The notes below the pieces were generated by a model. It made no database searches and had not been told where the DNA came from. It saw nothing but the letters and a program-made list of their open reading frames with translations. Shown piece by piece: positions 1 through 18,571 of a stretch of 18,571 nucleotides of DNA. The DNA comes from Candidatus Poribacteria bacterium. Its GTDB lineage: Bacteria > Abyssobacteria > SURF-5. The DNA lies in NCBI GenBank assembly GCA_016215705.1, contig JACRIR010000025.1, forward strand, positions 1 to 18,571. The letters run 5' to 3'. A program made the translations under genes and the position numbers. Numbering within the stretch: the stretch's first letter is position 1; each line of letters begins with the position of its first letter.

Positions 1-6
1 CAGGAT

Positions 7-1811: not shown

Positions 1812-2207
1812 CTAATGCTCTTTTTCTTTGCGAACATTCCACAGTTTATCACCTATGCTTTAATTCGAGTAATTCGTGATCCAACTCTTCTTCTTCATTT
1901 GTGTCATTCGTCTCGCGCCTTGCGTCCCGCGTTTCGCGGAATGACATTCGTGTTCCCAGAGTTTCTTCTTCTTTTTTTTCTTAGTTGCGGCTACGCCCCG
2001 CCGTGTCAATACGTGGTTAAAGACGCCTCTTCTTTTTTTTCTTCTTCTTTTCCCCGTGACTCCCGCGCCGAGGCCCCGCGTTTCGCGGGGTCCCGCCCCC
2101 GGCGGGATGCTCCCCGTGGTAAACTGCCTCTTTTGTTTCTTCTTCTCTTGGTTGGTTGAGGCTCCGCCGCGCTGTGCAACAAAACGAGAATGACAGAGGG
2201 GGCGCGG
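1812..2207. other. Gene-free, pyrimidine-rich spacer with hairpins and repeat ends
   Basis: No convincing gene is present. The plus strand has long C/T runs with TTC triplets (about 1885-1897, 1966-1981, 2028-2056, 2128-2147), so the other strand is purine-rich. A 45-bp element with TGTCATTC (1902-1909) and GAATGACA (1939-1946) ends resembles a shrunken version of the element at 7-115. Two adjacent perfect stems lie at 2074-2090 (CCCCGCG/CGCGGGG) and 2091-2107 (TCCCGCC/GGCGGGA). The motif TTGCGGCTACG at 1984 recurs inverted near 11316, and GAGAATGACA at 2186 is another repeat end. A plus-strand frame of about 114 codons here is low-complexity and is not called. Confidence 0.6.
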
Positions 2208-3071: not shown

Positions 3072-3102
3072 TAAATGTGCTCCCCGTGTTTGGTCCTCTC
3101 CC

Positions 3103-3738: not shown

Positions 3739-3787
3739 TTTCATTTCCTCCGTTCAGCCTGTCTGATGATTTGCAATCGTCCCGTGA

Positions 3788-4585: not shown

Positions 4586-4937
4586 GCTGCGATTCCTCCC
4601 AAGGAAAAGTGAAAGGCGAAAAGAGCAAGACGAAAGGGAATGAAAGCCAAGAAAACAGAAAGATTGCTTCGCTCGGGCCTGCGCCTCTCCGCTCGCAATG
4701 GCTGCGACAGAAAGAGGCGAAGGGCGAAAGCGAGAGATTCGAGAGGGGAAAAACGAACTTGTTCATGGGTTCCGACTGCATGTGCATTATTCATGACGTA
4801 TGCTCAGACAACATTTCTCTTGACTTATAATGTAACATGTGTTATTTTATAATATGTAAGACATTTGATTACAGTATATAACAGCATATGTTTTCGCATA
4901 ACGTGAGTTATAATATCACCTTCTTAAGGATTTGTCA
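4586..4937. other. Divergent regulatory spacer of the methyltransferase operons
   Basis: The left part (4586-4760) has no gene and holds a repeat: ATTGC (4663-4667) and GCAAT (4695-4699) bracket TTCGCTCGGGCCTGCG, a string shared with the element at 7-115. The right part (about 4800-4930) is strongly AT-rich, unlike its surroundings, and carries the promoter and operator signals described separately. I see no cobalamin-riboswitch-like conserved box. Two short frames spanning 4609-4852 are purine-rich noise. Confidence 0.6.
4820..4920 (+). promoter_or_regulatory. Promoter and candidate operators for the TetR/MttB operon
   Basis: TTGACT (4820-4825) and TATTTT (4843-4848) are 17 bases apart. Inside the spacer lies the inverted repeat TAACA-tg-TGTTA (4833-4844). 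A related pair, TATAAC (4877-4882) and GTTATA (4907-4912), lies downstream, and TTATAAT-like strings recur (4826, 4847, 4908). Repeated TAACA/TGTTA and TATAAC/GTTATA half-sites next to a TetR gene suggest autoregulation and control of the divergent operon. Which site the protein binds is an inference. Confidence 0.5.
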
Positions 4938-5552
4938 ATGCCAAAGATTGTTGATTACGATTCCAAACGGGAAGAAGTGGCGGAGGCCACGTGGAGAGTC
5001 ATAGCCAAAAGGGGAATAGACAACGCCACAATCAGGGAAATTGCGAAAGAGGCCCACTGTTCGACCGGCGTTATCACTCATTATTACAGAGACAAGAAGG
5101 AGCTTCTTCTCTATGCGCTCCGTCTTGCGCGGGTGCGGCTGGCCCGGCGGGTCGAGAGAAAAATGGCAGGGGTGGTTGACAGAGAGACAATCAGAAGCGT
5201 GGTCTTTGAGTCTTTGCCGCTGGACACGGAAGGCCGTTTGGGGATGCAGATTTGGTTGAGCTTTTGGGGGAGGACGGTGAGTGATCCCTCGATGTTGGAG
5301 GAACAGAAACTGAGATACAGCGAGTCGCGGAGGTTCATGACGGACCTGATTCTCGAAGCGCAGCGAAACGGCGTCATTCGGGCGGACGTCGATGCCCTTG
5401 CTGAGGCCGACTCAATCACCGCGATGGGCGATGGCGTGGGCATCCAGGCGACATTGGAGCCCTCTCGCTTCCCGGCGGAGCGCCAGATGGCAATTATGGA
5501 CAAGTACCTTTCGACTCTTTTTTCGGCAAATTCAAAGGAGGCGGTTTCATGA
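4938..5552 (+). CDS. TetR-family transcriptional regulator
   Basis: This 204-residue protein is a TetR/AcrR-type repressor. The N-terminal helix-turn-helix spans about residues 12-56 (ATWRVIAKRGIDNATIREIA, then CSTGVITHYYRDKKELL), with the family's usual turn and the closing Y-F/Y-x-x-K pattern. The C-terminal 140 residues form the ligand-binding helices, with IWLSFWGR (about 107-114) as in BetI-like regulators. The start is the ATG at 4938: AAGGA (4926-4930) is 7 bases upstream, while the TTG at 4932 would be 1 base away. Its last codons overlap the MttB gene by four bases (ATGA), so the two are translationally coupled. It most likely senses the methylated substrate or its product and controls both divergent operons; the similarity to BetI hints at a betaine-like ligand, which is inference. 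Confidence 0.9.
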   Translation: MPKIVDYDSKREEVAEATWRVIAKRGIDNATIREIAKEAHCSTGVITHYYRDKKELLLYALRLARVRLARRVERKMAGVVDRETIRSVVFESLPLDTEGRLGMQIWLSFWGRTVSDPSMLEEQKLRYSESRRFMTDLILEAQRNGVIRADVDALAEADSITAMGDGVGIQATLEPSRFPAERQMAIMDKYLSTLFSANSKEAVS

Positions 5553-7042
5553 AGACAAGGAGATTCGAGGTTCTAAGCGAGGACGAAATACAGAAGATTC
5601 ACGAAGGTTCCCTTACGGTTCTTGCGGAAAAAGGTGTAAAGGTTGAGGCCGATGACCTGCGAGACCTTTTCAGGAAACGCGGCGCGCTCGTGAACGACAC
5701 GGAACAAGTGGTCCGCATTCCCGAAGAAATCGTGCTGTGGGCCATCGAACAAGCTCCGAGCGGTTTCATGGTCTACGGGCATGACCCGAATTTCAAAGTT
5801 CGCATCGATTGCCGGTCATCTCTGTTCTGCGGGCTCGGCACGCCTACTCATATGCTCGACAGCAAGGGAAACCTCACGCTCGCGACGCTTGAGGACCTCC
5901 GCAAACATATTATCCTGATAGATGATCTCGAAAACCTGACAAACGATCAAATGGATATCTGGCCGGGCGACATCCCGATGACGACGATCCACGTGGAGGC
6001 TGCGCGAGTCTGGGCGCGCGAGGCGCGAAAGCCGTTCGGAACCGGCACTCTCGGATACCTGGCCACCAAGGACACGGTGGATATGACGGCCATGATAGTC
6101 GGGGGTATCGACGAATTGATGAAGAGGCCGCGCCTCGTGGGCATTTGCAGCGTCGTTAGTCCTCTCAAGATTGACACCGCGCAAGGTCACGGAATGAAAG
6201 TTTTCGCCGAGCACAACCAGCCGCTCATTATGGCGCCCGAAGCGATGGCGGGCACAACTGCGCCGGTGACTCTGGCCGGCCTGCTTGTGCAGCACAACGC
6301 CGAGGTGCTCGCGCACATCACGCTCGCACAGATAATCAATCCCGGAGCGCCGGTGTTGTGGGGAACGGTCTCGACCGTGGCCGATATGAGAACCGGCAAC
6401 GTTGCAATCGGCTCATTCGAGACCGGCCTCATTACGGCGGCATGCGCCCAGATTGCCAGATACTACAATATCCCTTCGCGCGGGGTTGGGGGAACCACGG
6501 ACTCGAAGCTGCTCGATGTCCAATGCGGATTTGAGAGAATGATGAACCTGTTCGCCGCGTACATGTCAGGCATTAACTACATCACATGCATGGGCACGCT
6601 CGAGAGGACCGTCGTCGGGTCGCATGAACTCATGGTTCTGGACAATGAGATCGCCGGAATGCTGAAAAGGATCGCGCGCGGAATCGAAGTAAACGACACC
6701 ACGCTCGCAGTTGACCTGATCAAGAACCTAGACTGGTCGGAGAACTACATGAACCAGATGCACACTGCGCAGCATTTTCGTTCCGAACTGTATCTAAGCG
6801 ATCTGATTGACCATAATCCGCGCGACGCATGGGAAAGCGCCGGCTCGAAGGGCGTGCTCGACCGTTGCGCCGACAAGGTGGAGAAGATTATCGCAAATCA
6901 CAAGGCCAACAAACTGAGCGGTGAGCTCGAGAGCAAGATGCAGAAGTTTATCGACGAGGTTGCGGCAAGGCCTCTCGAAGAGTTCTATAAATACGAAGGC
7001 ATGGAAGCGCCGGAGTCGCCTCCCGCCGGGCTGCCGATTTGA
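5549..7042 (+). CDS. MttB-superfamily methyltransferase without pyrrolysine
   Basis: This 497-residue protein matches the full length of the trimethylamine methyltransferase (MttB) superfamily. Family-typical stretches are seen throughout: an N-terminal LSEDEIQKIHEGSLTVLAEKGVKV, VRIPEEIV near 65, GLGTPTHMLD near 96, APEAMAGTTAPVTLAG near 230-245, and GGTTDSKLLDVQ near 315. True MttB reads an internal amber codon as pyrrolysine; here the frame is open from start to TGA, so this is the non-Pyl group that includes glycine betaine methyltransferase (MtgB) and relatives acting on other quaternary amines. It should move a methyl group from such a substrate to the corrinoid protein encoded across the spacer. 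AAAGGAGG precedes the ATG and the start overlaps the regulator's stop. The substrate is not established. Confidence 0.92.
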   Translation: MKTRRFEVLSEDEIQKIHEGSLTVLAEKGVKVEADDLRDLFRKRGALVNDTEQVVRIPEEIVLWAIEQAPSGFMVYGHDPNFKVRIDCRSSLFCGLGTPTHMLDSKGNLTLATLEDLRKHIILIDDLENLTNDQMDIWPGDIPMTTIHVEAARVWAREARKPFGTGTLGYLATKDTVDMTAMIVGGIDELMKRPRLVGICSVVSPLKIDTAQGHGMKVFAEHNQPLIMAPEAMAGTTAPVTLAGLLVQHNAEVLAHITLAQIINPGAPVLWGTVSTVADMRTGNVAIGSFETGLITAACAQIARYYNIPSRGVGGTTDSKLLDVQCGFERMMNLFAAYMSGINYITCMGTLERTVVGSHELMVLDNEIAGMLKRIARGIEVNDTTLAVDLIKNLDWSENYMNQMHTAQHFRSELYLSDLIDHNPRDAWESAGSKGVLDRCADKVEKIIANHKANKLSGELESKMQKFIDEVAARPLEEFYKYEGMEAPESPPAGLPI

Positions 7043-7118
7043 AGGAAAACGAAACAAGGAAAAAGGAGGGGGTGCTGCGTTTCGTAAGTTATGTGAAGTA
7101 TCTGTTTCATGATCCGAT

Positions 7119-7140
7119 GGGGCGACTCGCGAGTCGCCCC
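7119..7140. repeat. Perfect 22-bp palindrome
   Basis: GGGGCGACTCG is followed directly by its exact reverse complement CGAGTCGCCCC, with no spacer. There is no T-run after it, so it does not look like a classical intrinsic terminator, though it separates the MttB gene from the cysteine synthase gene. It resembles the 32-bp palindrome at 9904-9935 in length, position (between genes) and GGGGC/GCCCC content. Confidence 0.85.
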
Positions 7141-7309
7141 TGCTGCGGGACAAGTCCAACCTCCTTTTCTTTCAGTATTGCCTACCTGTACTGATATAAT
7201 TGAATTGTTGTTTTTGATCCGAATCGCAAGACCGATAAGAATTCAGAAGACAATTATGGAAGATGCTAACATCGACCGCCACGCAGAAACGCGGGGGGAG
7301 AAAACCACG

Positions 7310-8248
7310 GTGTCAAAAGACGCAATTCTTCACAGTGCCCTGGGCATGATCGGCAATACGCCGCTGGTGTCGCTTGAAAGGATTCATCCCGGTCCGGGCC
7401 GATTATTGGCAAAAGCTGAATTCGTTCAGCCCGGCGGCAGCGTCAAAGACAGGGCGGCGTTACGAATCATTCAGGATGCTTATTCGGCCGGGAAACTGTC
7501 GCCCGGGAAGCCGGTAGTGGAAATGACCAGCGGCAACATGGGGGCCGGCCTGGCCGTCGTTTGCAACGTAATGGGCAATCCCTTTGTCGCCGTAATGTCG
7601 GAAGGCAATAGCCCTGCGCGAGCGAGGATGCTCGAATCTTTGGGGGCGGAGGTTGTGCTTGTTCCGCAGGTTGATGGCGCGCCCGGTCAGGTGACAGGAA
7701 GAGACATTGAGAAGGCGACTGAGCGGGCCGTCGAGTTGGCGCAGACGCGCGGCGCATTCTACGTCGACCAATTCAATAATGTTTCGAGTGTCCTGGCGCA
7801 TGAGGCGGGGACGGGACCGGAGATTTGGGAGGCCGTAGGCGGCGAGATCGATGGGTTTGTCGCCGCAGTGGGCAGCGGAGGCGCCTTCGTGGGGACAAGC
7901 CGGTTCCTGAAAAGGCGGAAGCCCTCCGTTTATTGCGCAGCCGTGGAGCCGGAGGGCGCTGAGATATTGGCCGGAAAAAAGGTAACAAAGCCCAAGCATA
8001 TTATTCAGGGCATTGGATATGGAATTGTTCCTCCGCATTGGGACGTCTCGCTCGCAGACACGACGATAGCGGTCTCCGACGAACAAGCCGCACGCTTTCG
8101 GAAGGAATTGGCAAATAAGGAAGGATTGTGCGTCGGATTCTCGGCTGCCGCAAACGTCTGCGCATCCTTGAAACTGCTTTCCAGCGGCCGCCTGGGCGCA
8201 TCTCCCACGGTCGTAACGATACTGTGCGACACTGGATTGAAGTACTAG
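7310..8248 (+). CDS. PLP-dependent cysteine synthase-family protein
   Basis: This 312-residue beta-family PLP enzyme normally makes cysteine from O-acetylserine (or a related activated serine) and sulfide. Motifs are IGNTPLV (14-20), the cofactor lysine Lys-46 in GGSVKDRAA, TSGNMG (73-78; usually TSGNTG) for the substrate carboxylate, the phosphate-cradle glycines GSGGAF (188-193), and GIGYGIVPP (234-242). The GTG at 7310 is chosen because GGGGGGAG lies about 9 bases upstream; an ATG at 7256 would add 18 unconserved residues behind a weak site. Longer frames would translate through the palindrome at 7119. A TATAAT (7195-7200) with TTCAGT (7171-7176) may be its promoter. Cystathionine beta-synthase or a homocysteine-forming relative remain possible. 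Its link to methyl metabolism could be sulfur assimilation. Confidence 0.88.
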   Translation: MSKDAILHSALGMIGNTPLVSLERIHPGPGRLLAKAEFVQPGGSVKDRAALRIIQDAYSAGKLSPGKPVVEMTSGNMGAGLAVVCNVMGNPFVAVMSEGNSPARARMLESLGAEVVLVPQVDGAPGQVTGRDIEKATERAVELAQTRGAFYVDQFNNVSSVLAHEAGTGPEIWEAVGGEIDGFVAAVGSGGAFVGTSRFLKRRKPSVYCAAVEPEGAEILAGKKVTKPKHIIQGIGYGIVPPHWDVSLADTTIAVSDEQAARFRKELANKEGLCVGFSAAANVCASLKLLSSGRLGASPTVVTILCDTGLKY

Positions 8249-8271
8249 TACAAAAGACATTTGGTTGAAGA

Positions 8272-8300
8272 TGGACATCGGCGTTTTCATATGTTATACT
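8272..8300 (+). promoter_or_regulatory. Strong sigma-70-type promoter
   Basis: TGGACA (8272-8277) and TATACT (8295-8300) are 17 bases apart, each one mismatch from consensus. It points at the acyl-CoA synthetase gene and gives that gene its own transcript, about 107 bases before the ATG at 8414. The 5' leader (8306-8413) holds no obvious riboswitch. Confidence 0.65.
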
Positions 8301-8413
8301 GAGGCTACTATTGTGGTAGATTCATTCACATCGCCCCTGTGATCGTCCCAATCTTATCCCGGCGCCCAATACGTGTGTTCTCCCTTTTATGATCTGAATT
8401 CGGAGGTAATTCG

Positions 8414-9859
8414 ATGGCCGTTGATGCGAACATGGATACAAACAACTCCCTGAACACCCTTTTCTATCCGAAAACCATCGCAGTCGTGGGCGCTTCGCCC
8501 GATGGAGACCCCTTTCGCTGGGGCGGGAAAACATTTATCGAAGGGCTTGTAAAGCAAAATTATCGCGGAAAGGTGTACCCTGTTCATCCGAAGGCCGATA
8601 CCGTCCTCGGCCTCAAGGCATACAGAAGCGTGGACGAAGTTCCCGATGAAGTGGACCTCGCGATATTCAGCGTGCCCGCATCGGCAGTGATGGGCGTAAT
8701 GGCGGATTGCGTCAAGAAGCGCGTCAAGTTTGTCCACATCTTCACTGCCGGTTTCAGCGAGACGGGCCTGGAGGATCGCGCGAAGCTCGAGAGCGACATG
8801 GCAACGCTCGCGCGGGAAGGCGGCGTGAGAGTGGTCGGCCCCAATTGCATGGGAGTGTACTGCCCCGACGGCGGCGTCGCGTGGGTGAAGGACTTCCCTT
8901 CAGAGAGCGGACCGGTTGCCTTCGTTTCGCAAAGCGGCCAACTCGCAGGCCACTTCATCGAGGTGGGCAAGCCGAGAGGAATCACGTTCAGCAAGGTCAT
9001 CAGCTATGGCAACGCGAGCGACCTGCAATGCCACGATTTCCTTAAATACCTCGCGGACGACGAAAAGACCAAAGTCATCGGCTCATATATCGAAGGTCTC
9101 AAAGACGGGCGCGCATTCTTCGAGATGGCGAAGAAACTCACAGTGAGAAAGCCGTTGGTTGTCTGGAAGGGCGGACAAACCGAGGGCGGCTCGAGAGCGG
9201 TCAGTTCGCACACGGCCTCGATAGCCGGCTCTCGACATCTCTGGCGCGCGCTATGCAGGCAGACCGGTATCATTTCCGTCGATTCGATTGAAGAGCTTGC
9301 AGCCACGATTGTCGCATTGCAAGACCTGACCCCGCCGAAGGGACCAAACGTGGCGATTGTGGGCGGAGCAGGCGGCGGAAGCGTGACGATGACCGACGCG
9401 GCTGAGAGGGCCGGCCTGAAAGTGCCTCACCTTTCGGAAGCCACCATCCGCGGACTCGAAGAGTTTGTGCCGGTGCACGGCCAAAGCGTGAAGAATCCGC
9501 TCGATATATTCAGCGTGCTCGTCAACCCCGACCATTTCAGCAGGATGATAGCGTTTCTGCGCGACGATCCGCTGGTTGATGCGCTCATCTACATGCAGCG
9601 AGCGGAATGGGCGCTCAGGCGCGAGCGCGTTTTTCTCGAAGTTGCCGTCCGGATGACAATCGAAGGCGCGCGCGAACTCAAGAAGCCGCTGTTCCTTATC
9701 TTGACGGGCGGCCAGACACTGGAAGGCGACATACTCCGCAGGGAAGCGCAGCAAAGATACGCTCACGCAGGGATTCCTACGTTTCCGACATTCGATGAGG
9801 CCGCGCAAGCAGCCTACAATTTGAGCGAGTATCAGCGATATCTAACGTTGCGGCTGTGA
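8414..9859 (+). CDS. CoA-binding acyl-CoA synthetase (NDP-forming), alpha-type
   Basis: This 481-residue protein has the succinyl-CoA synthetase alpha architecture used by ADP-forming acetyl/acyl-CoA synthetases. The CoA-binding Rossmann domain (about 15-145) has VVGAS (24-28) and VGPNCMG (141-147). Two ligase-CoA domains follow: SQSG (172-175), VSYGN-like ISYGN (196-200), the SSHTASIAGS loop (264-273) with His-266 as the phospho-histidine candidate, and GGAGGGS (317-323). AGGAGGT-type ribosome site GGAGG (8402-8406) precedes the ATG. There is no ATP-grasp (beta) domain in this protein or elsewhere in the window, so it needs a partner from another locus, or it has another role. It would interconvert an acyl-CoA and acid with ATP, possibly on the carbon skeleton left after demethylation. 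Its substrate is unknown. Confidence 0.88.
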   Translation: MAVDANMDTNNSLNTLFYPKTIAVVGASPDGDPFRWGGKTFIEGLVKQNYRGKVYPVHPKADTVLGLKAYRSVDEVPDEVDLAIFSVPASAVMGVMADCVKKRVKFVHIFTAGFSETGLEDRAKLESDMATLAREGGVRVVGPNCMGVYCPDGGVAWVKDFPSESGPVAFVSQSGQLAGHFIEVGKPRGITFSKVISYGNASDLQCHDFLKYLADDEKTKVIGSYIEGLKDGRAFFEMAKKLTVRKPLVVWKGGQTEGGSRAVSSHTASIAGSRHLWRALCRQTGIISVDSIEELAATIVALQDLTPPKGPNVAIVGGAGGGSVTMTDAAERAGLKVPHLSEATIRGLEEFVPVHGQSVKNPLDIFSVLVNPDHFSRMIAFLRDDPLVDALIYMQRAEWALRRERVFLEVAVRMTIEGARELKKPLFLILTGGQTLEGDILRREAQQRYAHAGIPTFPTFDEAAQAAYNLSEYQRYLTLRL

Positions 9860-10217
9860 GAATGTGCCCGTCAAATCTGCACACAGGGACTGTCTATTGA
9901 TTGCTGTAGGGGCACGGCGCGCCGTGCCCCTACAGGCGAAGCGCCGGGGTGGTTAAATGTAAAAGAAAGGTAGAGTGTGAGGCGAACTGTCCGTAGCGTC
10001 ATTCTGCGCGAAGCGAAGAAGCTCCCTTTCGCCTTGCTCTTTTCTAGTCTTTCCCGTTTCTTAGGAACGGCTGACCCCTCTGAGCGGGGCTAATTATGAA
10101 AGAAAGAGCGCGTTCATTAGGATCATTGCGAGCGGAGCGAAGCAATCTTTCTTTTCTTGCTTCTCCCCTTTCGCCTTTGCCCTTTCACCTTTCGCCTGTT
10201 TCTTAGGAGGCTCTGCT
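9860..10217. other. Gene-free spacer with repeat elements before the UroD-family gene
   Basis: No gene is visible. The spacer holds a perfect 32-bp palindrome (9904-9935), a degenerate copy of the window's repeat family at 9998-10024 (GTCATTCTGCGCGAAGCGAA), and a related solo end at 10125-10146 bounded by ATTGC and GCAAT. C/T-rich runs fill 10022-10060 and 10145-10205. TTAGGAGG just before 10218 is the ribosome site of the next gene. Confidence 0.65.
9904..9935. repeat. Perfect 32-bp palindrome
   Basis: CTGTAGGGGCACGGCG is followed immediately by its exact reverse complement. The arms are 16 bp with no loop bases, so the single-stranded form would make a hairpin with a tight GC-rich tip. It sits 45 bases after the acyl-CoA synthetase stop. 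No T-run follows, so it is called a repeat and not an intrinsic terminator. Confidence 0.9.
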
Positions 10218-11306
10218 ATGACCGGAAGAGACCGAATACTCGCCGCACTCAGCCTTCAACAACCTGATCGCGTGCCGCTCTTTGAACTCGCCTACAATGA
10301 GGCGAGTGTTATCGGAATCGCCCGCCATTTCACCGACAAGCTCCCGCCGCCCAAGCCGGTCGCCGACATGACTCCCGAGGAACTGCTCATGATCTTCGAC
10401 GCGCTCGCACTCTTCCTGGAGGAACTTGATATCGAAGGAGTGTCTGCGCGCGTGCTTCATCATGAGGAACCGATGGGCAACGACTATTTCAAGGACAAGT
10501 GGGGCATCACTTACAAACGCAACCCGTTCGGGCTCGCCTTTCCTATGGAAGGCCCAATAAAATCGGCGTCCGACCTCAAGCGCTACACTCCGCCAAAATT
10601 CGACCCTGATGTCGACCTGTTTATGCTGAGCATGATCAAAGCACGCTTCAGCGGCAAGAAAGCAATCGTATTCTGCTCGCATGATTGTTTCCGGTACAGT
10701 TGGGGATTGCGGGGTGGCCTCGAACACTTGCTGATCGACTACATAGATAACCCTAAACTCGCGCATGAGCTCGCCCGCATCTCGACCGATTACCACAAAG
10801 AAGAAGTCGCCGCTGCCCTCGACGCAGGCGCAGACGCCGTTGCCCTCGAGGATGACCTTGCCTTCAATGCGAACACCTTGATGTCGCCCGCGCAGTTCGA
10901 TGAATTCATCGGCCCTTACCAGAAAGAGCTTGTGGATGTGATTCACAGCAAGGGCGGCAAAGCAATCAAACACACTGACGGCAACATCTGGCCGATAATA
11001 GACCGTTTCATCGAGATAGGCTTCGATGGAATCCATCCGCTTCAGCCGCAAGCAGGCATGGACTTGAAGAGAGTGAAGGAACTCTACGGAGACAAGGCCT
11101 GCCTGCTCGGAAACATAGACTGCATGGAAGTGCTTCCTTCGGGAACAGAGGAGGAGGTCGAGCAAGCAGTCAGACAGGCAATCGAAGACGCTGCTTCCGG
11201 CGGCGGCTACATCATGACTTCCTCGAACACCATCCACCCCGGCTGCAAGCCCGAGAACTACATCGCCATGGTCCGCGCCGCCCGGAAATACGGAAAATAC
11301 TCGTAA
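10218..11306 (+). CDS. UroD/MtaA/MtvB-family methyltransferase
   Basis: This 362-residue protein belongs to the uroporphyrinogen decarboxylase fold group. It opens with TGRDRILAALSLQQPDRVP, the classic start of the methyltransferase branch (methylcobalamin:CoM methyltransferases and the MtvB/OdmB aryl-ether demethylases). Candidate zinc ligands are His-252 and Asp-254 (KHTDGN), with Cys-343 in NTIHPGCKPEN near the end; Cys-302 (NIDCME) is a further candidate. CoM methyltransferases normally show HxC, so the HxD is a difference to note. True heme-pathway UroD is unlikely: its Arg-rich N-terminal substrate loop is absent and no heme genes are near. GGAGG lies 8 bases before the ATG. With the corrinoid and methyl-THF genes nearby, a methyl-donor demethylase is the likeliest role. 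A 376-codon antisense frame covers the gene but looks like composition only. Confidence 0.85.
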   Translation: MTGRDRILAALSLQQPDRVPLFELAYNEASVIGIARHFTDKLPPPKPVADMTPEELLMIFDALALFLEELDIEGVSARVLHHEEPMGNDYFKDKWGITYKRNPFGLAFPMEGPIKSASDLKRYTPPKFDPDVDLFMLSMIKARFSGKKAIVFCSHDCFRYSWGLRGGLEHLLIDYIDNPKLAHELARISTDYHKEEVAAALDAGADAVALEDDLAFNANTLMSPAQFDEFIGPYQKELVDVIHSKGGKAIKHTDGNIWPIIDRFIEIGFDGIHPLQPQAGMDLKRVKELYGDKACLLGNIDCMEVLPSGTEEEVEQAVRQAIEDAASGGGYIMTSSNTIHPGCKPENYIAMVRAARKYGKYS

Positions 11307-11404
11307 AGTGGGGACGTAGCCGCAACCAACCAAAAAGAAAAGAATTCACCACAAAGGCATCTAAGAAAGAGCCGATGTCGCGATCTTACCGACGGCAACG
11401 CCTG

Positions 11405-11535
11405 CGGCGAGTTCTTTCTTATATGGCGCTTGCGGCAGGATTTCTCTATGGCTCCCAATCTATTGATACTCGAATCATATTGTCGATCTCCGTATCTGAT
11501 TCAGTTGAAAACACCGGCAAAACCAAGTATAAAGG
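11405..11535 (-). pseudogene. Decayed 5' end and promoter of an mntA-like gene
   Basis: Read on the minus strand, this stretch is a diverged copy of the promoter and first codons of the intact mntA gene (12,730-12,860). The leader matches well by eye (TTTTGCCGGTG, TCAACT, AGATACGGAGA), and the ATG at 11478 opens the same peptide MIRVSID before a TAG at codon 11. Matches continue, out of frame, through TGCCGCAAGC and ATATAAGAAAG to about 11405, then end. The -35/-10 equivalents are altered to TTGGTT and TGAATC. It is therefore a dead duplicate of an antitoxin gene start. The plus-strand 74-codon frame over it is a shadow. Confidence 0.75.
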
Positions 11536-11627
11536 GACAAGTCTTGTCAGCGCATCCGTGATGAGTTTGCAAATATGGCGGGTTTTGGCAAGTTACTGAG
11601 AACTCAGAATGCAGAACGAAACATGCC

Positions 11628-12029
11628 GGACTAACCAAACTCAACAAGTTTCTTTTTTATGCCGACTTCAAACATTTCAAGGAAACCACTGTGTCCATCA
11701 CGGGCGCGCGCTACGCCCATCTTCCCCATGGTCCTGTCCCGAACAACTATGAGCACTTCTTCCTGGCGATGCAGGAGGAGGGTCTGCTGGAAGTTCGCGA
11801 AGAGTATTGGGGCGAGACATGCGCAGGGGAAATACACGTCGCGCTTCAAGAACCGGAAATGACCGTTTTCTCGGACAAAGAGAGGGAAGTTCTCGATCTG
11901 GTGAAGAGCACGTTTGAGCCTTACACGGTCAAGGCCATCGAGCGTTTTTCCCATGATGAGCGGGGGTATAAAGAAACAAAGAATGGCGAGTTGATATCAT
12001 ACAAGTGGGCGCGGGATTTGCGCATCTGA
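11628..12029 (+). pseudogene. Panacea/SocA-like (DUF4065) domain, N-terminally truncated
   Basis: From 11628 the frame reads GLTKLNKFLFYADFKHF, then SITGARYAHLPHGPVPNNY and a helix EHFFLAMQEEGLLEV, which is the pattern of the Panacea domain (SocA-like antitoxins and phage GepA-like proteins). The domain runs to about ELISYKWARDLRI at the stop. The open frame upstream extends only to 11565, has no ATG or ribosome site and no helix-turn-helix or zinc finger, although related proteins often carry one ahead of this domain. The only in-frame start is a GTG at 11691, inside the domain. It is best seen as the tail of a larger antitoxin-type protein. A short functional form translated from an unusual start cannot be excluded. 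Confidence 0.65.
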
Positions 12030-12054
12030 AGTACGGGAGAAGCCTTTCTCTCTT

Positions 12055-12094
12055 TCATCCACGAAGATCACGAAAGGCACGAAGCAAAGCAAGA
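12055..12094 (+). repeat. Left copy of a 40-bp direct repeat flanking hepT-mntA
   Basis: TCATCCACGAAG begins a 40-base unit that recurs at 12894-12933 in the same orientation with four differences. The internal pattern is itself repetitive (CACGAAG, CACGAAAGG, CACGAAGC). The two copies lie just outside the hepT-mntA cassette. Confidence 0.75.
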
Positions 12095-12178
12095 CCGCCG
12101 ATGGGCGCCGATGAATGCGAATTCCGGGGTCACGAATGACAGGAATCCAGAACAGTTGCGCAGACGCGCGGTTGATTT

Positions 12179-12511
12179 TCACAGAATTGATTCAAGCGCC
12201 ACGATGAGGGGAGGTAAATCGCTCGTAACGATTTGCCAGAGGATATCGAAGTCCACTGAGTCGTACCCGTGAATTAAGCGGTTCCGCATGCTGACCACTT
12301 GTGACCACGGGATTTCGGGATGATTGGACCGCTCCTCTTTCGACACACGGCTTGCGGCTTCCCCAATAATTTCAAGCAAGCGCGTCAGTGAAAGGTTCAA
12401 AGTGCGATCAGTATCGAGGTCCTCCCGCATTCTGCCTCGGCTGAGAGAGACCGCTTCTTTTGCGTAATCAAGCATGTGGCGATAGCGAATAACGTCAGCA
12501 TGCTTTGTCAT
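12179..12511 (-). CDS. hepT: HepT-type HEPN ribonuclease toxin
   Basis: This 110-residue all-helical protein is of the HepT (formerly DUF86) family, RNA-cleaving toxins of type VII toxin-antitoxin systems. The catalytic RX4HXY motif is complete: Arg-76, His-81 and Tyr-83 in MRNRLIHGYDSVD. The tyrosine is the residue that the partner nucleotidyltransferase modifies with AMP in studied systems. Other family features are LLEIIGEAASRVS (45-57) and HPEIPWSQVVSMRN (64-77). The gene overlaps the upstream mntA by 17 bases, so both come from one transcript with coupled translation. Length matches the family, and nothing suggests damage. The pair sits between two direct repeats, as if carried as a cassette. 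Confidence 0.92.
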   Translation of the reverse strand: MTKHADVIRYRHMLDYAKEAVSLSRGRMREDLDTDRTLNLSLTRLLEIIGEAASRVSKEERSNHPEIPWSQVVSMRNRLIHGYDSVDFDILWQIVTSDLPPLIVALESIL

Positions 12512-12794
12512 ACTGGACTTCGGCCTCGGACAAAACTTCGTCGCGGAAGTAGCGGCTCAGAAATTTAGGGGTATGCAGGTCAACTTTGCGGTGAAGAAGT
12601 TCCGACAACTCTGCCTCCATTTCAAAGAAAGACAGCCCGGGCACATGGCCGGCTTCAAACTCAACAAGCACATCAATGTCGCTCTCAGGCCCAAAGTCCT
12701 CTCTGAGGACCGATCCGAAGAATGAGAGCTTTCTCATATAGTGCTTGCGGCAGAATTGGGCTATAACCGCTTGATCTATCGATACGCGAATCAT
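12495..12794 (-). CDS. mntA: MntA-type nucleotidyltransferase antitoxin
   Basis: This 99-residue minimal nucleotidyltransferase neutralises HepT, in studied systems by adding AMP to its active-site tyrosine. The signature is intact: FFGSVLREDFGPESDIDVLV (25-44), with Gly-27/Ser-28 and the metal-binding Asp-39 and Asp-41, and a third Asp-72 in KVDLHT. The start at 12794 is taken because GGAG lies about 10 bases upstream and the same ATG and leader are repeated in the fossil copy at 11405-11535; a longer frame to 12866 would translate through the promoter. TTGATT-17-TAAATT sits directly upstream. It is the first gene of the pair, with antitoxin before toxin. Confidence 0.9.
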   Translation of the reverse strand: MIRVSIDQAVIAQFCRKHYMRKLSFFGSVLREDFGPESDIDVLVEFEAGHVPGLSFFEMEAELSELLHRKVDLHTPKFLSRYFRDEVLSEAEVQYDKAC

Positions 12795-12813
12795 ATTCTC
12801 GGTCTCCGTATCT

Positions 12814-12842
12814 AATTTAGTTGAAATCACCGGCAAAATCAA
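12814..12842 (-). promoter_or_regulatory. Probable promoter of mntA-hepT
   Basis: On the minus strand, TTGATT (12842-12837) and TAAATT (12819-12814) are separated by 17 bases and lie about 20 bases before the mntA ATG. The same region is recognisably duplicated at 11479-11535, where both boxes have decayed. Confidence 0.55.
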
Positions 12843-12893
12843 GTATAAGGGGTCGAACCCAGTCAAAGGCAGAGCTTTCTTTGAAAGAACTCC

Positions 12894-12933
12894 TCATCCA
12901 CGAAGTTCACGAAGGGCGCGAAGCAAGGCAAGA
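12894..12933 (+). repeat. Right copy of the 40-bp direct repeat flanking hepT-mntA
   Basis: It matches 12055-12094 at 36 of 40 positions by eye, in the same orientation. It lies about 50 bases upstream of the mntA promoter. Confidence 0.75.
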
Positions 12934-12973
12934 GAACAGCGCTGACTGCCGAATTTTGGTTGAATGGAGAGAC

Positions 12974-13021
12974 ATGGGACACTACTGCAAGGTATGCGGG
13001 CGCAGACGCGCCAACGAAAAT
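12974..13021 (+). pseudogene. Start of a small zinc-ribbon protein, broken
   Basis: The frame MGHYCKVCGRRRANEN has the CxxCGR(x)RxNE opening of short zinc-ribbon proteins whose usual continuation is a second Cys pair (CKDC-like). After 16 codons the similarity ends, and the frame runs on to 13123 with an unrelated composition and no second Cys pair of that type. It is called a 5' fragment. The identification rests on a short motif and is tentative. Confidence 0.4.
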
Positions 13022-13029
13022 CTTTTCCC

Positions 13030-13225
13030 CTGCATCCTCTTGTGTATATTCCTCAAAAGGAACTCCCGGCGAAGCGTCCGGATACCTGCTCACGAAATAG
13101 TCACTTTCAGAGACGTTACTTGATCGATCATCTCTTTGGGTAATCCAAGTTCTCTCGCGAGATTATATCATTCACGAGTTTCTCAAACAAATCGAAGAAC
13201 GCTGTCAGACCAATATTGTTCGGCT
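13030..13225 (-). pseudogene. HEPN-domain protein remnant with a frameshift
   Basis: On the minus strand one frame reads DLFEKLVNDIISRELGLPKEMIDQV (about 13195-13121), then hits a stop. A second frame reads SDYFVSRYPDASPGVPFEEY followed by TQEDAG (about 13112-13036). Joined, they match the C-terminal half of HEPN proteins of the COG2250 type, where an LP-E helix is followed by a Y-x-x-x-RYPDA segment and a TxEDA helix. A one- or two-base shift around 13110-13120 would explain the break. The N-terminal helices and the last helix are missing. The neighbouring fragments on both sides belong to other genes, so this is a fossil within a mosaic. Confidence 0.6.
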
Positions 13226-13327
13226 GACGGCGACAATATGCCGGTCGGAATTCTTTTCTGCACGCAAAAGGATCATGCGCTGGCCGAATACGCTTTCGCA
13301 GGCGCGGACAACAAAAGGCATTTGTAA
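13223..13327 (+). pseudogene. Fragment of a DUF1016 (YhcG-like) nuclease C-terminus
   Basis: ADGDNMPVGILFCTQKDHAL followed by AEYAFAGADNK resembles the C-terminal strand-helix region of DUF1016/YhcG-type PDDEXK nucleases (DNPPIGILLC-x-x-KD...EYAL-x-G-DN). The family continues with a Ser/Ala-Lys-Tyr segment; here a stop follows within three residues. Sequence upstream of 13223 does not continue the match. It is a gene fragment of about 34 codons, with no start signal. Confidence 0.5.
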
Positions 13328-13435
13328 CCGCTGATGAACACGGGTTTCGGGGTCACTGACCCTCGAGATGTCAAAAGAATTTGAATGTTATTGCCGTTTC
13401 TGCTAAGCTTACTGAGAATAGGAAAGGGGAATATG

Positions 13436-13798
13436 ATGGCGAATCTCGCGGAGAGGTTCTTCAATGCGGGGCTAAAACCCAAAGGAATAACGGTTTCCGA
13501 AGATGTCCGGAGATTCCTCTGCGAAGAATTGCCCGAAGCTGAAGCCCACAGCATTGTTTCCGGCTTGAGCGACTTGGAGAGAATCATCCGTGATTCATTC
13601 ACAAATATAGTGTCCGTCTCGCTCGAGATGTTCGAGAACCCGGAAGTCCCGGAAGAAAAGAACATTCGAATCAGGATTCATTTGAGAAAATCAGGGAAAA
13701 GAGCCTTTCAACAGTATCGATCATATACTCGTCTTTTCGTAAAGAAATTCCCATCCGAATTCGGCCGATGGTTTGTCACAAGCGTGGACTACATTTAG
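13436..13798 (+). CDS. Unrecognised 120-residue protein, partner of the next HEPN gene
   Basis: I do not recognise this family with certainty. The start is the second of two adjacent ATGs (13433, 13436); AAAGGGGA (13423-13430) fits the second better. The N-terminal two thirds look helical, with VSEDVRRFLCEELPEAEAHSIVSG-like amphipathic segments and an Asp/Glu-rich helix. Residues 56-85 look like beta strands (IVSVSLEMFENPEV, IRIRIHLRKSG), followed by a basic, aromatic end (RSYTRLFVKKFPSEFGRWF). There is no GSx10DxD signature, so it is not a nucleotidyltransferase antitoxin. The next gene, a HEPN protein, starts 19 bases after its stop on the same strand, so the two probably form an operon. 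Weak promoter: TTGAAT (13381-13386) with TGcTAAGCT (13401-13409). A role as antitoxin or regulator of the HEPN protein is inferred from position only. Confidence 0.65.
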   Translation: MANLAERFFNAGLKPKGITVSEDVRRFLCEELPEAEAHSIVSGLSDLERIIRDSFTNIVSVSLEMFENPEVPEEKNIRIRIHLRKSGKRAFQQYRSYTRLFVKKFPSEFGRWFVTSVDYI

Positions 13799-13817
13799 CC
13801 AGTCATTCCCAGCCTTC

Positions 13818-14252
13818 ATGAACCCCAAAGACTTTCTCATCCTTGCGCGAGAGCTTCACAAGGGCGGCAAAGCCGCGAGGCGAACGGCAGTAAGCCGGGC
13901 ATACTATGCCGCCCATCACATGGGACGACGACTGCTGCAATCAATTGGCATTGACTTGTCGAGGCCGGCGGAAAGACGGGAAATACACGTTCTCACATAC
14001 AGTTGTTTCAATCAATCAGGAAACGACGCGCTTGTTGAAGCAGGTCGGTTACTGAGAGATTTGCACGCAAGCAGGATTGAAGCTGACTACGAGTTGGACA
14101 AGGAAGAGATCGAAGACGAAGCCGTCGTAATGGATTGTCTGGACGCCGCCGAGGAGATAATCGGCATGCTGGAAGCAGATTATCCCGCCGACACGCTGGA
14201 AGCGACCAAAAACACAATAGAATTCTGGCGCAAGGTTAAATATGGGCGTTGA
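13818..14252 (+). CDS. HEPN-domain protein
   Basis: This 144-residue helical protein shows the HEPN pattern in which a basic helix leads into SRAYYAAHHMGRRLL (26-40), followed by an H-containing helix (EIHVLTYSCFNQSGN, 55-69) and LLRDLHASRIEADYEL (78-93) before a long acidic helix. This resembles the HEPN group annotated near small partner genes. The canonical RX4-6H catalytic motif is not clearly present, so RNase activity is uncertain. The ATG at 13818 is used; the in-frame TTG at 13773 would overlap the preceding gene. No strong ribosome site precedes the ATG, which fits translation coupled to the upstream gene. The likely role is the effector (toxin) of a two-gene module. Confidence 0.75.
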   Translation: MNPKDFLILARELHKGGKAARRTAVSRAYYAAHHMGRRLLQSIGIDLSRPAERREIHVLTYSCFNQSGNDALVEAGRLLRDLHASRIEADYELDKEEIEDEAVVMDCLDAAEEIIGMLEADYPADTLEATKNTIEFWRKVKYGR

Positions 14253-14562
14253 TGGTTCTTTTGCATTTCTTGTATCTTCGCGGGGTCAGGTCTTGCAATA
14301 TGATTCCGCTGCAAAACCACCTATTTGTGGTATAAGAACATGCAGTTGGATAAACTTGTCTAATTTGACTGCAAAGACGTGCCGTGGGCCATCCTTGGTT
14401 GCGTAGAAGCCTTTCTATGAAGGCTCCCAGGCATTCGATTTTTCGACCCCGAGAGGGGGTTTTGCAGCGGAATCGCAATATCACATCCGGACAAGCACAA
14501 ACTGCTACCTCGCAACACTGCCAAGCGCGGCTTCTCGTCGATTTTGCACCTCTGAGCTCCAG
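14253..14562. other. Gene-free stretch with a 17-bp inverted repeat
   Basis: No gene is visible on either strand. GATTCCGCTGCAAAACC (14302-14318) and its exact reverse complement (14458-14474) enclose about 139 bases that contain a small hairpin (ACCAC/GTGGT near 14316-14330). GCAATAT occurs next to the outside of both arms. The layout resembles the ends of a small, non-coding mobile element. The rest (14475-14562) is unremarkable. Confidence 0.55.
14302..14474. repeat. 17-bp perfect inverted repeats, possible MITE or transposon remnant
   Basis: The arms at 14302-14318 and 14458-14474 match exactly in inverted orientation. The interior (139 bases) lacks coding potential. The string GGGGTCAGGTCTTGCA just to the left (14283-14298) resembles sequence I associate with REP-type transposase fragments, but no transposase is present here. 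Confidence 0.55.
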
Positions 14563-14866
14563 TGCATAAGTCGCGCTAACATCTCCAAAATCTGTACCTC
14601 TGCGCGTCACTAGAAATGTCTTGGGAAACAGCGCAACCCCTAAGCCGCCAATTCCTCTTCGACCGATTCGCGTCGGTCCATGGGGGGGTGACATCGTAGT
14701 TGCGCAGGGTTTCGATGACACCTTGTGGCACGCTCTGGTCCACATGTTAAGGAGCGCATACGCCCGGGAGTCCGGCGGCCTCACTTCCTTTGTGTCAATC
14801 CACTTAAAGGCGATGGCTTCGGCTGTGTCCCGGTTCGGCTTCGTCGCACTTCGCCTCTGAATGGCT
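14563..14866 (-). pseudogene. Duplicated, decayed 3' end of the DUF1829-type gene
   Basis: The minus strand repeats the last third of the DUF1828/DUF1829-type gene (15,963-16,742) and about 80 bases beyond its stop. One stretch is translated almost identically: [20 protein letters not shown], then DSRAYA. After that small indels shift the frame, and the stop and conserved downstream string (GTTGCGCT-TTTCC, AGCGC-A-TTATGC-CTGAG) are still recognisable in DNA. It lacks any start. The 237-codon frame that spans it is an accident of indels. Both copies lie in the same orientation, on either side of the HEPN/nucleotidyltransferase pair. Confidence 0.8.
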
Positions 14867-14918
14867 GAATGCCTTGGCCATGTCAGATTCAAGGATGACG
14901 ATGCTTGGACAGTCGCCT

Positions 14919-15335
14919 TCAGAATCCTTTCAGCATCGCACTTGCCCACGCCATAACAAGTTCAGCCATCCGCATCGCTTCATTCAAGTCAGTTTCAGTA
15001 ACTTCATATGAGTAGCCTGGATATCGCGTCTCAACTGCGTATGGAGTCAGAAGACCTGCCTCACAGATATTTTCCGGCAACTGCACGCCGTTGTCTTCCG
15101 CAATCTTCAAGAGCTCTTCGATATCATGCGTCAGGGGAAATTCGATTTCTCGTGATAGCAGAACGGCCTTGATCGCTTTTTCGGCAGCTTGCTGGGCATG
15201 AAAGCACACCTGTTCCCGACGGATTGAGGAATCGCCTGCCGCCAATCGCGCCATCTTCAGGTCACTTTCCGCATAGGTCATCCACTCCGCCGGCGAGCCC
15301 GGCGCCCTACCGGAGTCTTTAGGACTCATAGACAA
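14919..15335 (-). CDS. HEPN-domain protein of a HEPN/nucleotidyltransferase pair
   Basis: This 138-residue protein is a HEPN-family (COG2250-type) helical protein. Key stretches are MTYAESDLKMARLA (19-32), CFHAQQAAEKAIKAVLLSRE (44-63), LTHDIEELLKIAEDNGVQLP (68-87) and TPYAVETRYPGY (97-108), ending in a helix that begins TETDLNEAMRMAELV. These match the family's order and length. The strict RX4-6H motif is not evident: Arg-62 and His-70 are seven residues apart, so catalytic activity is open. It overlaps the nucleotidyltransferase gene by 17 bases, exactly the overlap seen in the hepT-mntA pair. Its stop lies about 50 bases from the fossil DUF1829 copy. The likely role is the toxin-like partner of a HEPN-MNT system. 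Confidence 0.88.
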   Translation of the reverse strand: MSMSPKDSGRAPGSPAEWMTYAESDLKMARLAAGDSSIRREQVCFHAQQAAEKAIKAVLLSREIEFPLTHDIEELLKIAEDNGVQLPENICEAGLLTPYAVETRYPGYSYEVTETDLNEAMRMAELVMAWASAMLKGF

Positions 15336-15663
15336 CTTTCCCGTTGCGCAGAGCTTCGCGGTAAATCATGCCCGGCCGGTCCTTCAGTTCTTCCCACTTT
15401 TCTTGCGGGACAACGAGAATATCCATGGGCATTGATACGCCTCGCAACGCGCGGCGAATCCGAATGCTTTCCTTGCGAGGGTCCTCTACTGCATCATTGA
15501 CAATCACCAGAATGTCAAGATCGCTGTTGATCGTGACGTTGCCGCTGACATAAGAGCCAAACAGTATGACTTTGACCGGCTGGACCAGACCAACGATTGT
15601 GCGAATGGCAAATTCGACTTTCTCAGAAGTTATCGCCCAAGCGTGTTCTCGTCTTGCTTCCAT
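15319..15663 (-). CDS. Minimal nucleotidyltransferase (MNT) of a HEPN/MNT pair
   Basis: This 114-residue nucleotidyltransferase-fold protein carries VILFGSYVSGNVTINSDLDI (32-51), with Gly-36/Ser-37 and metal-binding Asp-48/Asp-50, and a third acidic residue Asp-81 in MPMDILVV. The C-terminal tail (ALRNGKVVYES) is typical of MNT proteins paired with HEPN genes. It is transcribed first. GAGGAAAG lies about 6 bases before the ATG, and a strong promoter lies about 95-120 bases upstream. It differs from the mntA at 12,495 in sequence and length and is not a recent duplicate. The expected role is to modify and silence the HEPN partner; this is inferred from the family. Confidence 0.88.
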   Translation of the reverse strand: MEARREHAWAITSEKVEFAIRTIVGLVQPVKVILFGSYVSGNVTINSDLDILVIVNDAVEDPRKESIRIRRALRGVSMPMDILVVPQEKWEELKDRPGMIYREALRNGKVVYES

Positions 15664-15756
15664 TGTCGGCTTTCCTCATCAGGTCGCCAGTTGCGCGATC
15701 GTCTCATAAGTCTTCTAAAAAGGGTCCTAACAATTCATTCTCCCATCTGTTTTTCT

Positions 15757-15785
15757 ATCATACATAAATGGCGTCAGGGAGTCAA
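15757..15785 (-). promoter_or_regulatory. Strong promoter for the MNT/HEPN pair
   Basis: On the minus strand TTGACT (15785-15780) and TATGAT (15762-15757) are 17 bases apart, each one base off consensus. It points toward the MNT gene, leaving an AT-rich leader of about 90 bases. The rest of the 15,664-15,962 spacer shows no gene; its right end carries the conserved region downstream of the DUF1829-type gene. Confidence 0.65.
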
Positions 15786-15884
15786 AGAAGACACGTGAAA
15801 GCAAAGATGTCAGACGCACATAATTAAAAGCGCAGGAACCTGACTATCCTTGCAGGGAGACCGATGGCAAGCAGATTGGGTCTC

Positions 15885-16187
15885 AGCGCATAAATTGCGC
15901 TGACACGTCCCAATCCATATTTCCGGGAACCACTGAAAATGTTTTTGGAAAAAGCGCAACTCTCACGCCGCCAATTCTTCTTTCATCGCTTCGCGTTCGG
16001 TCCATGAGACGGGGGTTACATCGTAGTTGCGTAGCGCTTCGATGACGCCCCGTGGCACGCTCTGGTCTACATCGTTGAGGAACGCATACGCCCGGGAGTC
16101 CGAAGGCCTCACTTCTTTTGTGTCGATCCACTTGAAGGCAATGGCTTCGGCTGTGTCCCGGTTCGGGCGCGTGATCGTCTGAAGGAT
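15885..16187. repeat. Source copy of the duplicated DUF1829-end segment
   Basis: This segment includes the last 75 codons of the intact DUF1828/DUF1829-type gene and about 78 bases after its stop. It matches 14563-14862 in the same orientation over nearly its whole length, with scattered substitutions and small indels. The shared non-coding part includes an imperfect GCGCA/TGCGC stem near 15887-15901. Confidence 0.75.
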
Positions 16188-16742
16188 TCGTTCCGGCCGT
16201 TTCCTCGATTTTGGGATAACGAAATCGAAAAGGTGGTCGTACCCGCTCTTGCCCGTGAATTTTACCTTTGGCGTATAGCGAATGTCGTTCGTTTCTAACC
16301 ACGTAACCACATCCTCATAGAACAGATTCGCCACCATCGGCACGGCGAGAAAGAAAAGGTCGTTCACTGCGAGCATCGCCTGAACGAGATTGTGTTTGCG
16401 GAGACCAAAACTTTCCGGCGATGCGTGAATTTCCAGCGCCCCTTTGTTGTTTTGCACGCCGAATCCCGCCAACGTTATCCTGAGCAAATCCTGCCTCTTT
16501 GGGCTATCAAGTTTGCAGCCGGACTTTCGGAGGTCTTCCAGGACATAACCGTCGTCTGTCAGGACAAAGATTCCATTCTGTCTCTTTGCGTAAATCTGGA
16601 GGCAGTCGTTATGACGGTCCATGTACGGCGTCGTGATTTCCACCCAGTCCTTGTTGACCTGCCGGAGCGTGGTCTTGTCTCTTAGCCATTTGAAGTACTG
16701 CTCCAACGACTCCCGGATTTCATCGATCATGTGAATAGTCAT
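15963..16742 (-). CDS. DUF1828/DUF1829-type protein
   Basis: This protein of about 259 residues looks like the two-domain DUF1828 plus DUF1829 family, whose function is not known to me. The N-terminal domain has [20 protein letters not shown], then [19 protein letters not shown] (about 58-76), then [15 protein letters not shown]. The C-terminal domain has [32 protein letters not shown] and [14 protein letters not shown]. The length is what the family shows, and the frame is intact. The ATG at 16742 is used; TTG 16745 and ATG 16730 are alternatives, and none has a clear ribosome site. It lies between the HEPN/MNT pair and the TOTE-type primase, both conflict-type systems, so a role in defence or in a mobile element is possible. 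Its 3' end is duplicated at 14563-14866. Confidence 0.7.
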
Positions 16743-16833
16743 CAAGCGCCGCGCAACGGACTCCGCCCGAACATGATTCTTCGTCTGTGTCTCTTCGGAA
16801 AAGATCTCCCATAGTCATGGGCTTTGCATTGCC

Positions 16834-16863
16834 TTGAATTTAACAGATTTGTTTGTCTAAAAT
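16834..16863 (+). promoter_or_regulatory. Probable promoter of the TOTE-type primase operon
   Basis: TTGAAT (16834-16839) and TAAAAT (16858-16863) are 18 bases apart. It lies upstream of a short frame and the primase gene, with the divergent DUF1828-type gene on the other side. Confidence 0.45.
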
Positions 16864-16906
16864 CAAGCGCAACGATTCAATTGCCTGCAAACGCCACCGC
16901 GCTCAA

Positions 16907-17053
16907 ATGAAAATGTCACCGGTCTTCGATATACTCGTATTCGGATTCATCGGTGCGCAGGAGCATTTAGAGAAGTTGATCGAACACTCGGAGAACCATG
17001 AAGCCAAGTCCCGTAGGCATTACCGGGTTCTGTCAAGACATGAGAATGCGTGA
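16907..17053 (+). CDS. Possible 48-residue protein coupled to the primase gene
   Basis: The frame begins MKMSPVFDILVFGFIGAQEH and continues with a charged helix (LEKLIEHSENHEAKSRRHYR). No family is recognised. Its TGA (17051-17053) overlaps the ATG of the primase gene (17053) in a TGATG arrangement, which suggests coupled translation. There is no clear ribosome site before its ATG, and a second ATG is two codons on. It could be a real leader protein, a fragment, or chance; the overlap is the main support. Confidence 0.3.
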   Translation: MKMSPVFDILVFGFIGAQEHLEKLIEHSENHEAKSRRHYRVLSRHENA

Positions 17054-18309
17054 TGGTAGCCGATTCGAAAAACAGTATTCAATCCAATGAGCATTCGGAG
17101 ACGTTGAAAGAAGCGCTGGAGGAAAACGCTCGGCTCCGCGAGGAAAACGAGCGGCTTCGCCGAATGCTGGGATTGGCCTCTGGGTCTTCTGCGCCTGAGG
17201 ACTCTGCGGAATCGAAGGAGCTATTTCCAGATGTAAAGCCCTTTCCCGCGGTAAATTCAAGGTCTTCTGTTCAGGAGAAGATAACCCTATTCAGATGTCT
17301 TTTCAAAGGTCGAGAGGATGTCTTCGCAGTTCATTGGATTGATGAGAGAACGGGGAAGAAAGGATACTCGCCCGCTAAGATGGGGAGATACGGGAAAGCA
17401 GCGAAATCCAAACAGAAGTACCTTCCTCTGACAGATGAAGTCGTCCGCGATCACTTATCAGGAAACAGGGTTGTAGGCGTCTATCCGCTTCTTGAAGACG
17501 ACACATGTTGGTTTCTTGCCTGCGATTTCGACGGAACAGGATGGGATCTCGATGCGCACGAATATTTGGCGACGTGCAGTCGCTGGAAGGTTCCCGCCTA
17601 TTTGGAACGCTCGCGATCAGGCAACGGAGCCCACGTGTGGATATTCTTCTCGACTTCCGTTCCCGCCGTATCAGCGCGTCGATTAGGGGTCTCACTCCTC
17701 CGAGAAACCATGGTGACTCGAGCAGAAATGGACTTGTCCAGCTACGACCGATTCTTTCCCAATCAGGATTTCCTGCCCAAAGGCGGCTTCGGGAATCTCA
17801 TTGCGCTTCCCTTGCAGAAGAAAGTTCGGGTATTGGGGAATACTGAATTCTTGAATGAGAAACTTGAGTCGTGGCCGGATCAATGGGCCTTTCTCAGTCA
17901 GATCAAACGTCTATCTCATCAGCAACTGGAGGCTCTCCTGGAACTGCTGCCTCCTGTCATCGTCGGTCCGGAGAGTTTCGGAGTAGTCATCAAGCCCTCC
18001 AAGAAGGAACATCCGCCGCCGAAGGAAATTCGGTGCGCGCTTCGAGCACAGATTTCTATTGAAAAGTCCGGGCTTCCTCCATCTTTACTTTCGCGTGTCA
18101 AGCATTTGGCCTGTCTGCACAACCCTGAGTTCCACAAGAAACAGAAGCTGCGTCTCTCGACCTATGGAACACCCCGATTCGTCAAATGCTATGGGGAAGA
18201 TATTACGCATCTCCATTTGCCCCGAGGTCTGCTTTCAGAACTCAAAGATGTCATGAAACAAGTCGGCAGTCGGCACGGATTCAGGAGCTCATTGAGGAAG
18301 CCATCGTAG
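17053..18309 (+). CDS. TOTE-type archaeo-eukaryotic primase, truncated before its helicase
   Basis: This 418-residue protein matches the front of TOTE conflict-system proteins, which join a primase-polymerase (AEP) to a helicase and sometimes a nuclease. An N-terminal leucine-rich coiled coil (EENARLREENERLRRMLGL, 23-41) precedes EKITLFRCLFKGREDVFAV (75-93). The AEP core has ACDFDGTGW (156-164, acidic DFD), ERSRSGNGAHVW (185-196, catalytic-type His-194), SSYDRFFPNQD (229-239) and GGFGNLIALPLQ (244-255). A linker domain follows, with LACLHNPEFHKKQKLRLSTY (352-371), PRFVKCYGED and LPRGLL. In relatives a DEAD-type helicase comes next; here matching ends at about residue 407 (QVGSR) and the frame stops 11 codons later. 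The ATG at 17053 overlaps a short upstream frame; GTG 17050 is an alternative. A stand-alone primase role is possible but unproven. Confidence 0.85.
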   Translation: MVADSKNSIQSNEHSETLKEALEENARLREENERLRRMLGLASGSSAPEDSAESKELFPDVKPFPAVNSRSSVQEKITLFRCLFKGREDVFAVHWIDERTGKKGYSPAKMGRYGKAAKSKQKYLPLTDEVVRDHLSGNRVVGVYPLLEDDTCWFLACDFDGTGWDLDAHEYLATCSRWKVPAYLERSRSGNGAHVWIFFSTSVPAVSARRLGVSLLRETMVTRAEMDLSSYDRFFPNQDFLPKGGFGNLIALPLQKKVRVLGNTEFLNEKLESWPDQWAFLSQIKRLSHQQLEALLELLPPVIVGPESFGVVIKPSKKEHPPPKEIRCALRAQISIEKSGLPPSLLSRVKHLACLHNPEFHKKQKLRLSTYGTPRFVKCYGEDITHLHLPRGLLSELKDVMKQVGSRHGFRSSLRKPS

Positions 18310-18571
18310 ATGCCCATGATGGGGAGGAGCAAGAATGCGGCTTCCTGACGATGCTTCAAGACGATGTCTCAGTTCCCTTCAAGTCTCTCGCAGTTGGCGA
18401 AGAGGTTGAGGTGACGGGCTTCGATGTCGGCGATGGAGACCGTGGCATTGTAGCGGTCTGCTTGCGCAAAGGCAAGGAATACCGCGTGAGTGTTACTTCA
18501 TTGGAATGGAAGTGCAAGTCTCCGGAAGGCGCCGAATATATCGAAGCATACAAGGCATGGGTTCAGGGAAA
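18276..18571 (+). pseudogene. Headless small acidic ORF (calcium-binding-like), runs off the window
   Basis: From 18276 a second frame reads RIQELIEEAIVDAHDGEEQE, then CGFLTMLQDDVSVPFKSLAV and GAEYIEAYKAWVQG at the window edge. It resembles a family of roughly 110-residue proteins often labelled calcium-binding, with an EEAVVDAYDxEEQ opening, a D-x-xx-PF strand, V-V-G-D strands and a G-EW/YIEAYRxW end. The frame overlaps the last 34 bases of the primase gene. No ATG, GTG or TTG lies at a sensible place: the first ATG is well inside the conserved region (about 18350). It may be a 5'-truncated gene, or may use an unusual start such as the ATT at 18279. Family and function are tentative. Confidence 0.5.

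Follow-up and report, generated by a model that had tools for sequence, protein, structure and literature searches.

How did a primase gene come to be cut off before its helicase and to run into the body of a second gene devoid of a start codon? The question arises at the right end of the window, which is the whole of contig C72 (positions 1 to 18,571) of a 5.47 Mb draft assembly in 270 contigs; the joint between the two genes thus lies at the contig end, about 300 bp from position 18571. The first-pass annotation had proposed either a deletion or recombination joint, or a compact primase expressing the second frame by reinitiation or programmed frameshift. After a search for relatives of both genes across 386 genomes, we consider that the joint is probably a scar left by an ordinary deletion in a defence locus under decay, and not a new kind of gene.

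The primase open reading frame occupies positions 17053 to 18309 of the forward strand, with a GTG at 17050 as an alternative start. It matches the AEP-TOTE primase profile PF22548 over 17275–17934 (residues 72–291 of the translated segment 17062–18306) with 291 bits and an E-value of 6.9e-87, well above the curated cut-off of 27 bits. The AEP catalytic motifs are all present and align with those of intact relatives: the DxD motif, DFD, in the stretch DFDG at 17524–17535 (residue 158, counted from 17053 as are the following), which is conserved in all aligned relatives, the sxH-like motif SGNGAH at 17617–17634 (residue 189) and the third motif GNLIALP at 17791–17811 (residue 247). The similarity to the family was first placed up to about 18270 with a stop at 18309, and both limits hold: protein similarity to the relatives ceases at query residues 398–411, i.e. 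about 18270, at the DNA level the identity with another copy in this genome ceases at 18274, and the TAG stop codon is at 18307–18309, 35 bases past the end of similarity. The stretch 18275–18309 is an out-of-phase tail of the primase frame.

Matches to the primase were found in 32 of the 386 genomes. The complete close ones each consist of one gene, whose open frame mostly has about 800–980 codons and in which the primase is followed by a short linker, then by the ResIII/DEAD and Helicase_C domains. With these primase-helicase fusions, e.g. L004 in genome G030—61% identical to the window primase over residues 12–403—or the second gene of L010, the window frame has in common the primase domain and the catalytic motifs; what it lacks is the helicase half of about 400 codons. 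It ends within the linker preceding the helicase, so that the C-terminal SF2 helicase is absent from the polypeptide. A helicase query, which aligns nearly full-length with relatives of about 38–43% identity, detected no separate helicase half in the window's own assembly, and no second complete primase-helicase gene was found in the genome. Additional searches in its own phylum and in that of G030 (three genomes each) gave nothing new, and a primase-only gene followed by a properly started second gene, which would have spoken against a truncation, was looked for among the relatives and was not encountered. The view of a TOTE-type primase cut off before its helicase is thus borne out, the helicase following the primase in the complete close relatives. 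The primase domain could still be produced, but a system deprived of its helicase is presumably dead or dying. Besides, genome G030 carries a second AEP-TOTE copy (contig C6; L006 1453–3143), in which an internal deletion fuses the primase part to a later part of the helicase and the frame is also broken.

TOTE designates TPR, OB, TBP and Effector (PMC12458937), and the primase domain found in the window owes its Pfam name to these conflict systems. However, TOTE systems have TPR-OB and TBP genes beside the effector, and none was recognised among the window neighbours scanned; these cover part of the ORFs between 11.7 and 16.7 kb and are HEPN/MNT and DUF1828/1829 genes. The Pfam AEP-TOTE domain alone does not make the window locus a TOTE system.

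From 11.4 to 17 kb the window contains HEPN/MNT pairs and DUF1828/1829 with SocA-like genes, some of them as partial copies: 14608–14838 is 85% identical to 15931–16166, and 11414–11536 is 81% identical to 12729–12852. This toxin-antitoxin and defence region is in decay. A short interspersed repeat around TCTTCGCGGGGTCAGGTCTTGCAATAT is also found at 14274–14301 and, in reverse orientation, at 9316–9340, as well as on contig C5 (L013 5665–5692) and at several sites of the genome.

The second frame is that of a CcbP-family gene without start, at 18258–18571 of the forward strand, in the frame of 18186 and reaching the contig end. The first-pass annotation had recognised there the conserved body of a different protein family; this family is CcbP (PF11535), whose gene adjoins or overlaps primase-helicase genes in two other lineages. 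The profile matches 18291–18563 with 33.2 bits (curated cut-off 21.5; E 8e-8), and is matched through its last position despite the contig end. The segment is 51% identical to an intact CcbP gene of 112 amino acids in L044; compared directly with the solved Alr1010, it shows no significant similarity (E 0.22). The window frame thus shares with the CcbP/Alr1010 family a full-length profile match above the cut-off, but is short of the start and of about a dozen initial residues: in L044 and L010 the intact CcbP genes have their own start and about 12–17 extra N-terminal residues. Devoid of its own start, the window CcbP is not a complete gene.

This second frame had been described as opening within a few bases of the joint and lacking a start codon. 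There is indeed no usable start near the joint: neither ATG, GTG nor TTG occurs in the CcbP frame from 18189 to 18330. On the other hand the frame opens at 18129 and not at the joint, so that it overlaps the primase frame over 18129–18306, and it does contain one ATG, the sole in-frame one, at 18186, deep within conserved primase DNA. The window CcbP is probably not translated, and there is no second CcbP copy in the genome.

When searched directly in the 386 genomes, the window CcbP matched only one other genome (G032). We surveyed the neighbourhoods of about 19 independent AEP-TOTE loci, roughly 10 kb each, the near-identical loci L009 and L011 of Actinomycetes being counted once. In a Candidatus Eisenbacteria MAG (L010), the end of a primase-helicase gene (locus positions 1–449) is followed by a CcbP gene of 119 amino acids whose ATG overlaps the stop codon (TGATG), while another CcbP-like domain precedes the next primase-helicase gene of the same cluster. 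In the Actinomycetes loci the order is the opposite: a CcbP homologue comes first, and its stop codon shares bases with the ATG of the primase-helicase gene (ATGA, as seen in L009). An adjacency at two of about 19 loci, where roughly 0.0002 would be expected for a gene met once per about 1.2 Gb, is far above chance, given that the direct query matches a single other genome. The other 17 loci have no CcbP neighbour, so that the link between CcbP and AEP-TOTE genes is sporadic, not universal; this counts against a deletion within such a pair.

Outside these genomes, no CcbP was found in phages; one is present in viral contigs (L086), with no primase-helicase gene nearby, and eight plasmid records carry one, the four neighbourhoods inspected being without primase-helicase gene. 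On a Rhodococcus opacus plasmid (L045 7950–9613) the CcbP gene overlaps the start of the Helicase_C_3 gene directly after it, an overlap that hints at a possibly wider partnership of CcbP with helicase genes. As for the Eisenbacteria locus, the interval between its two primase-helicase genes (449–4463) holds the CcbP gene, an AAA ATPase gene, a short ORF and the second CcbP-like domain, the latter fused to a longer C-terminal portion that matches TPR weakly; this is possibly a larger defence cluster.

The existence of fusion relatives, the failure to detect a helicase half and the possession by intact CcbP relatives of their own start support the initial suggestion of a deletion or recombination joint. 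The joint itself is at 18261–18274 of the forward strand: as AGTCGGCAGTCGGC fits the last bases of the primase match and equally the first ones of the CcbP match, a microhomology of about ten bases is likely there. Since no close relative carrying an intact primase-helicase and CcbP pair was found, we infer the ancestral order in this lineage: a full AEP-TOTE primase-helicase gene, of about 800–850 codons, would have had a CcbP-family gene directly behind it. Some 1.3 kb—the size of the equivalent stretch in the Eisenbacteria pair of L010, 411 codons plus about 15—would have been deleted, and with it the whole helicase half, the stop/start junction and the initial CcbP codons, a dozen or so. 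This would have brought the CcbP body out of frame behind the primase linker, probably via the short GC-rich microhomology at 18261–18274, with the primase frame running into a chance stop after 35 bases and CcbP left without start. Such a scar fits a region where broken toxin-antitoxin genes already abound.

A second fragment of the same primase region lies on contig C5 of the same genome. The stretch 17865–18274 of the window (forward strand) is 90% identical to this fragment of 410 bp, and both copies end at the same base. On C5 (14554–15449, or L002 1490–2388, for the copy and its downstream partner), the primase fragment is joined to the last AbiEi codons, then to a cut-off AbiEii gene (PF08843), and the bases CGGC are common to both partners at the joint. 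We rejected the idea that the C5 tail, RPYLEAIL, is a natural C-terminus of the primase: it is the C-terminus of the AbiEi antitoxin, according to the AbiEi gene on contig C84 of the same genome, and also resembles AbiEi tails on plasmids. A scar of the same kind is seen on C84 (L076 900–1620), where the AbiEii gene downstream of AbiEi breaks off after about 38 codons. The two primase copies differ with a dN of 0.04 and a dS of 0.33, so that they mostly diverged under selection and were probably broken later. Their common break point is not explained by a simple one-off deletion and stands against the deletion reading; a local hot spot is possible, as is an older shared scar with later exchange. 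The joint of the window was also searched in viral contigs, with no exact match.

The C5 copy, itself joined to an unrelated gene, is also in favour of an illegitimate recombination of two loci, which would have linked a broken AEP-TOTE fragment to a CcbP gene from elsewhere, the donor lying for example just upstream of a second, tandem primase-helicase gene. Such arrangements exist: CcbP is upstream of the primase gene in L009, and the L010 cluster has two primase-helicase genes with CcbP-like genes between them. However, a simple deletion in a pair like that of L010 takes fewer steps, and the search of the genome gave no second complete primase-helicase gene; we find this recombination unlikely, including with the tandem donor. 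A little less credible still is an assembly artefact, i.e. a chimeric contig end present in no cell. The position of the joint near a contig end, in a draft of 270 contigs, would suit it, but the sequence common to both sides of the joint is at most about 14 bases and the usual assembly k-mers are longer. Moreover the partner, CcbP, adjoins this very primase gene elsewhere, which random chimerism would not favour, and the C5 copy breaks at the same base although it lies mid-contig.

Could the two frames instead form a working compact system, a primase-only protein with the CcbP body obtained by reinitiation, from the internal start at 18186 or by frameshifting? The frames do overlap openly over 18129–18306, and the catalytic motifs of the primase are intact. 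Nevertheless no slippage heptamer of the X XXY YYZ type occurs in 18101–18310, the ATGs that closely follow the primase stop lie in the frame of the primase, not in that of CcbP, and translation from 18186 would read conserved primase DNA out of frame. With no usable in-frame start near the joint and no slippery heptamer, a programmed expression of CcbP is unlikely, and the reinitiation or frameshift put forward at first was rejected. As, in addition, the arrangement is seen in no relative among the matches in the 386 genomes, we give a working compact system hardly any credit.

The deletion scar, which we prefer to these alternatives, has consequences for annotation: 17053–18309 should not be called a compact primase, nor 18186–18571 a new protein. 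On a broader scale, a tentative reading, to which we lend rather less than even credence, combines two proposals. Small CcbP proteins would be an unrecorded, sporadic and translationally coupled partner of AEP-TOTE primase-helicase genes, placed after them in Eisenbacteria, before them in Actinomycetes, and once present here; and the linker preceding the helicase would be, in this genome, a recurrent break point joining the primase to other small defence genes. The lead offered by this locus is that a rare CcbP gene, adjoining or overlapping AEP-TOTE genes in unrelated lineages, may be an uncharacterised part of the system.
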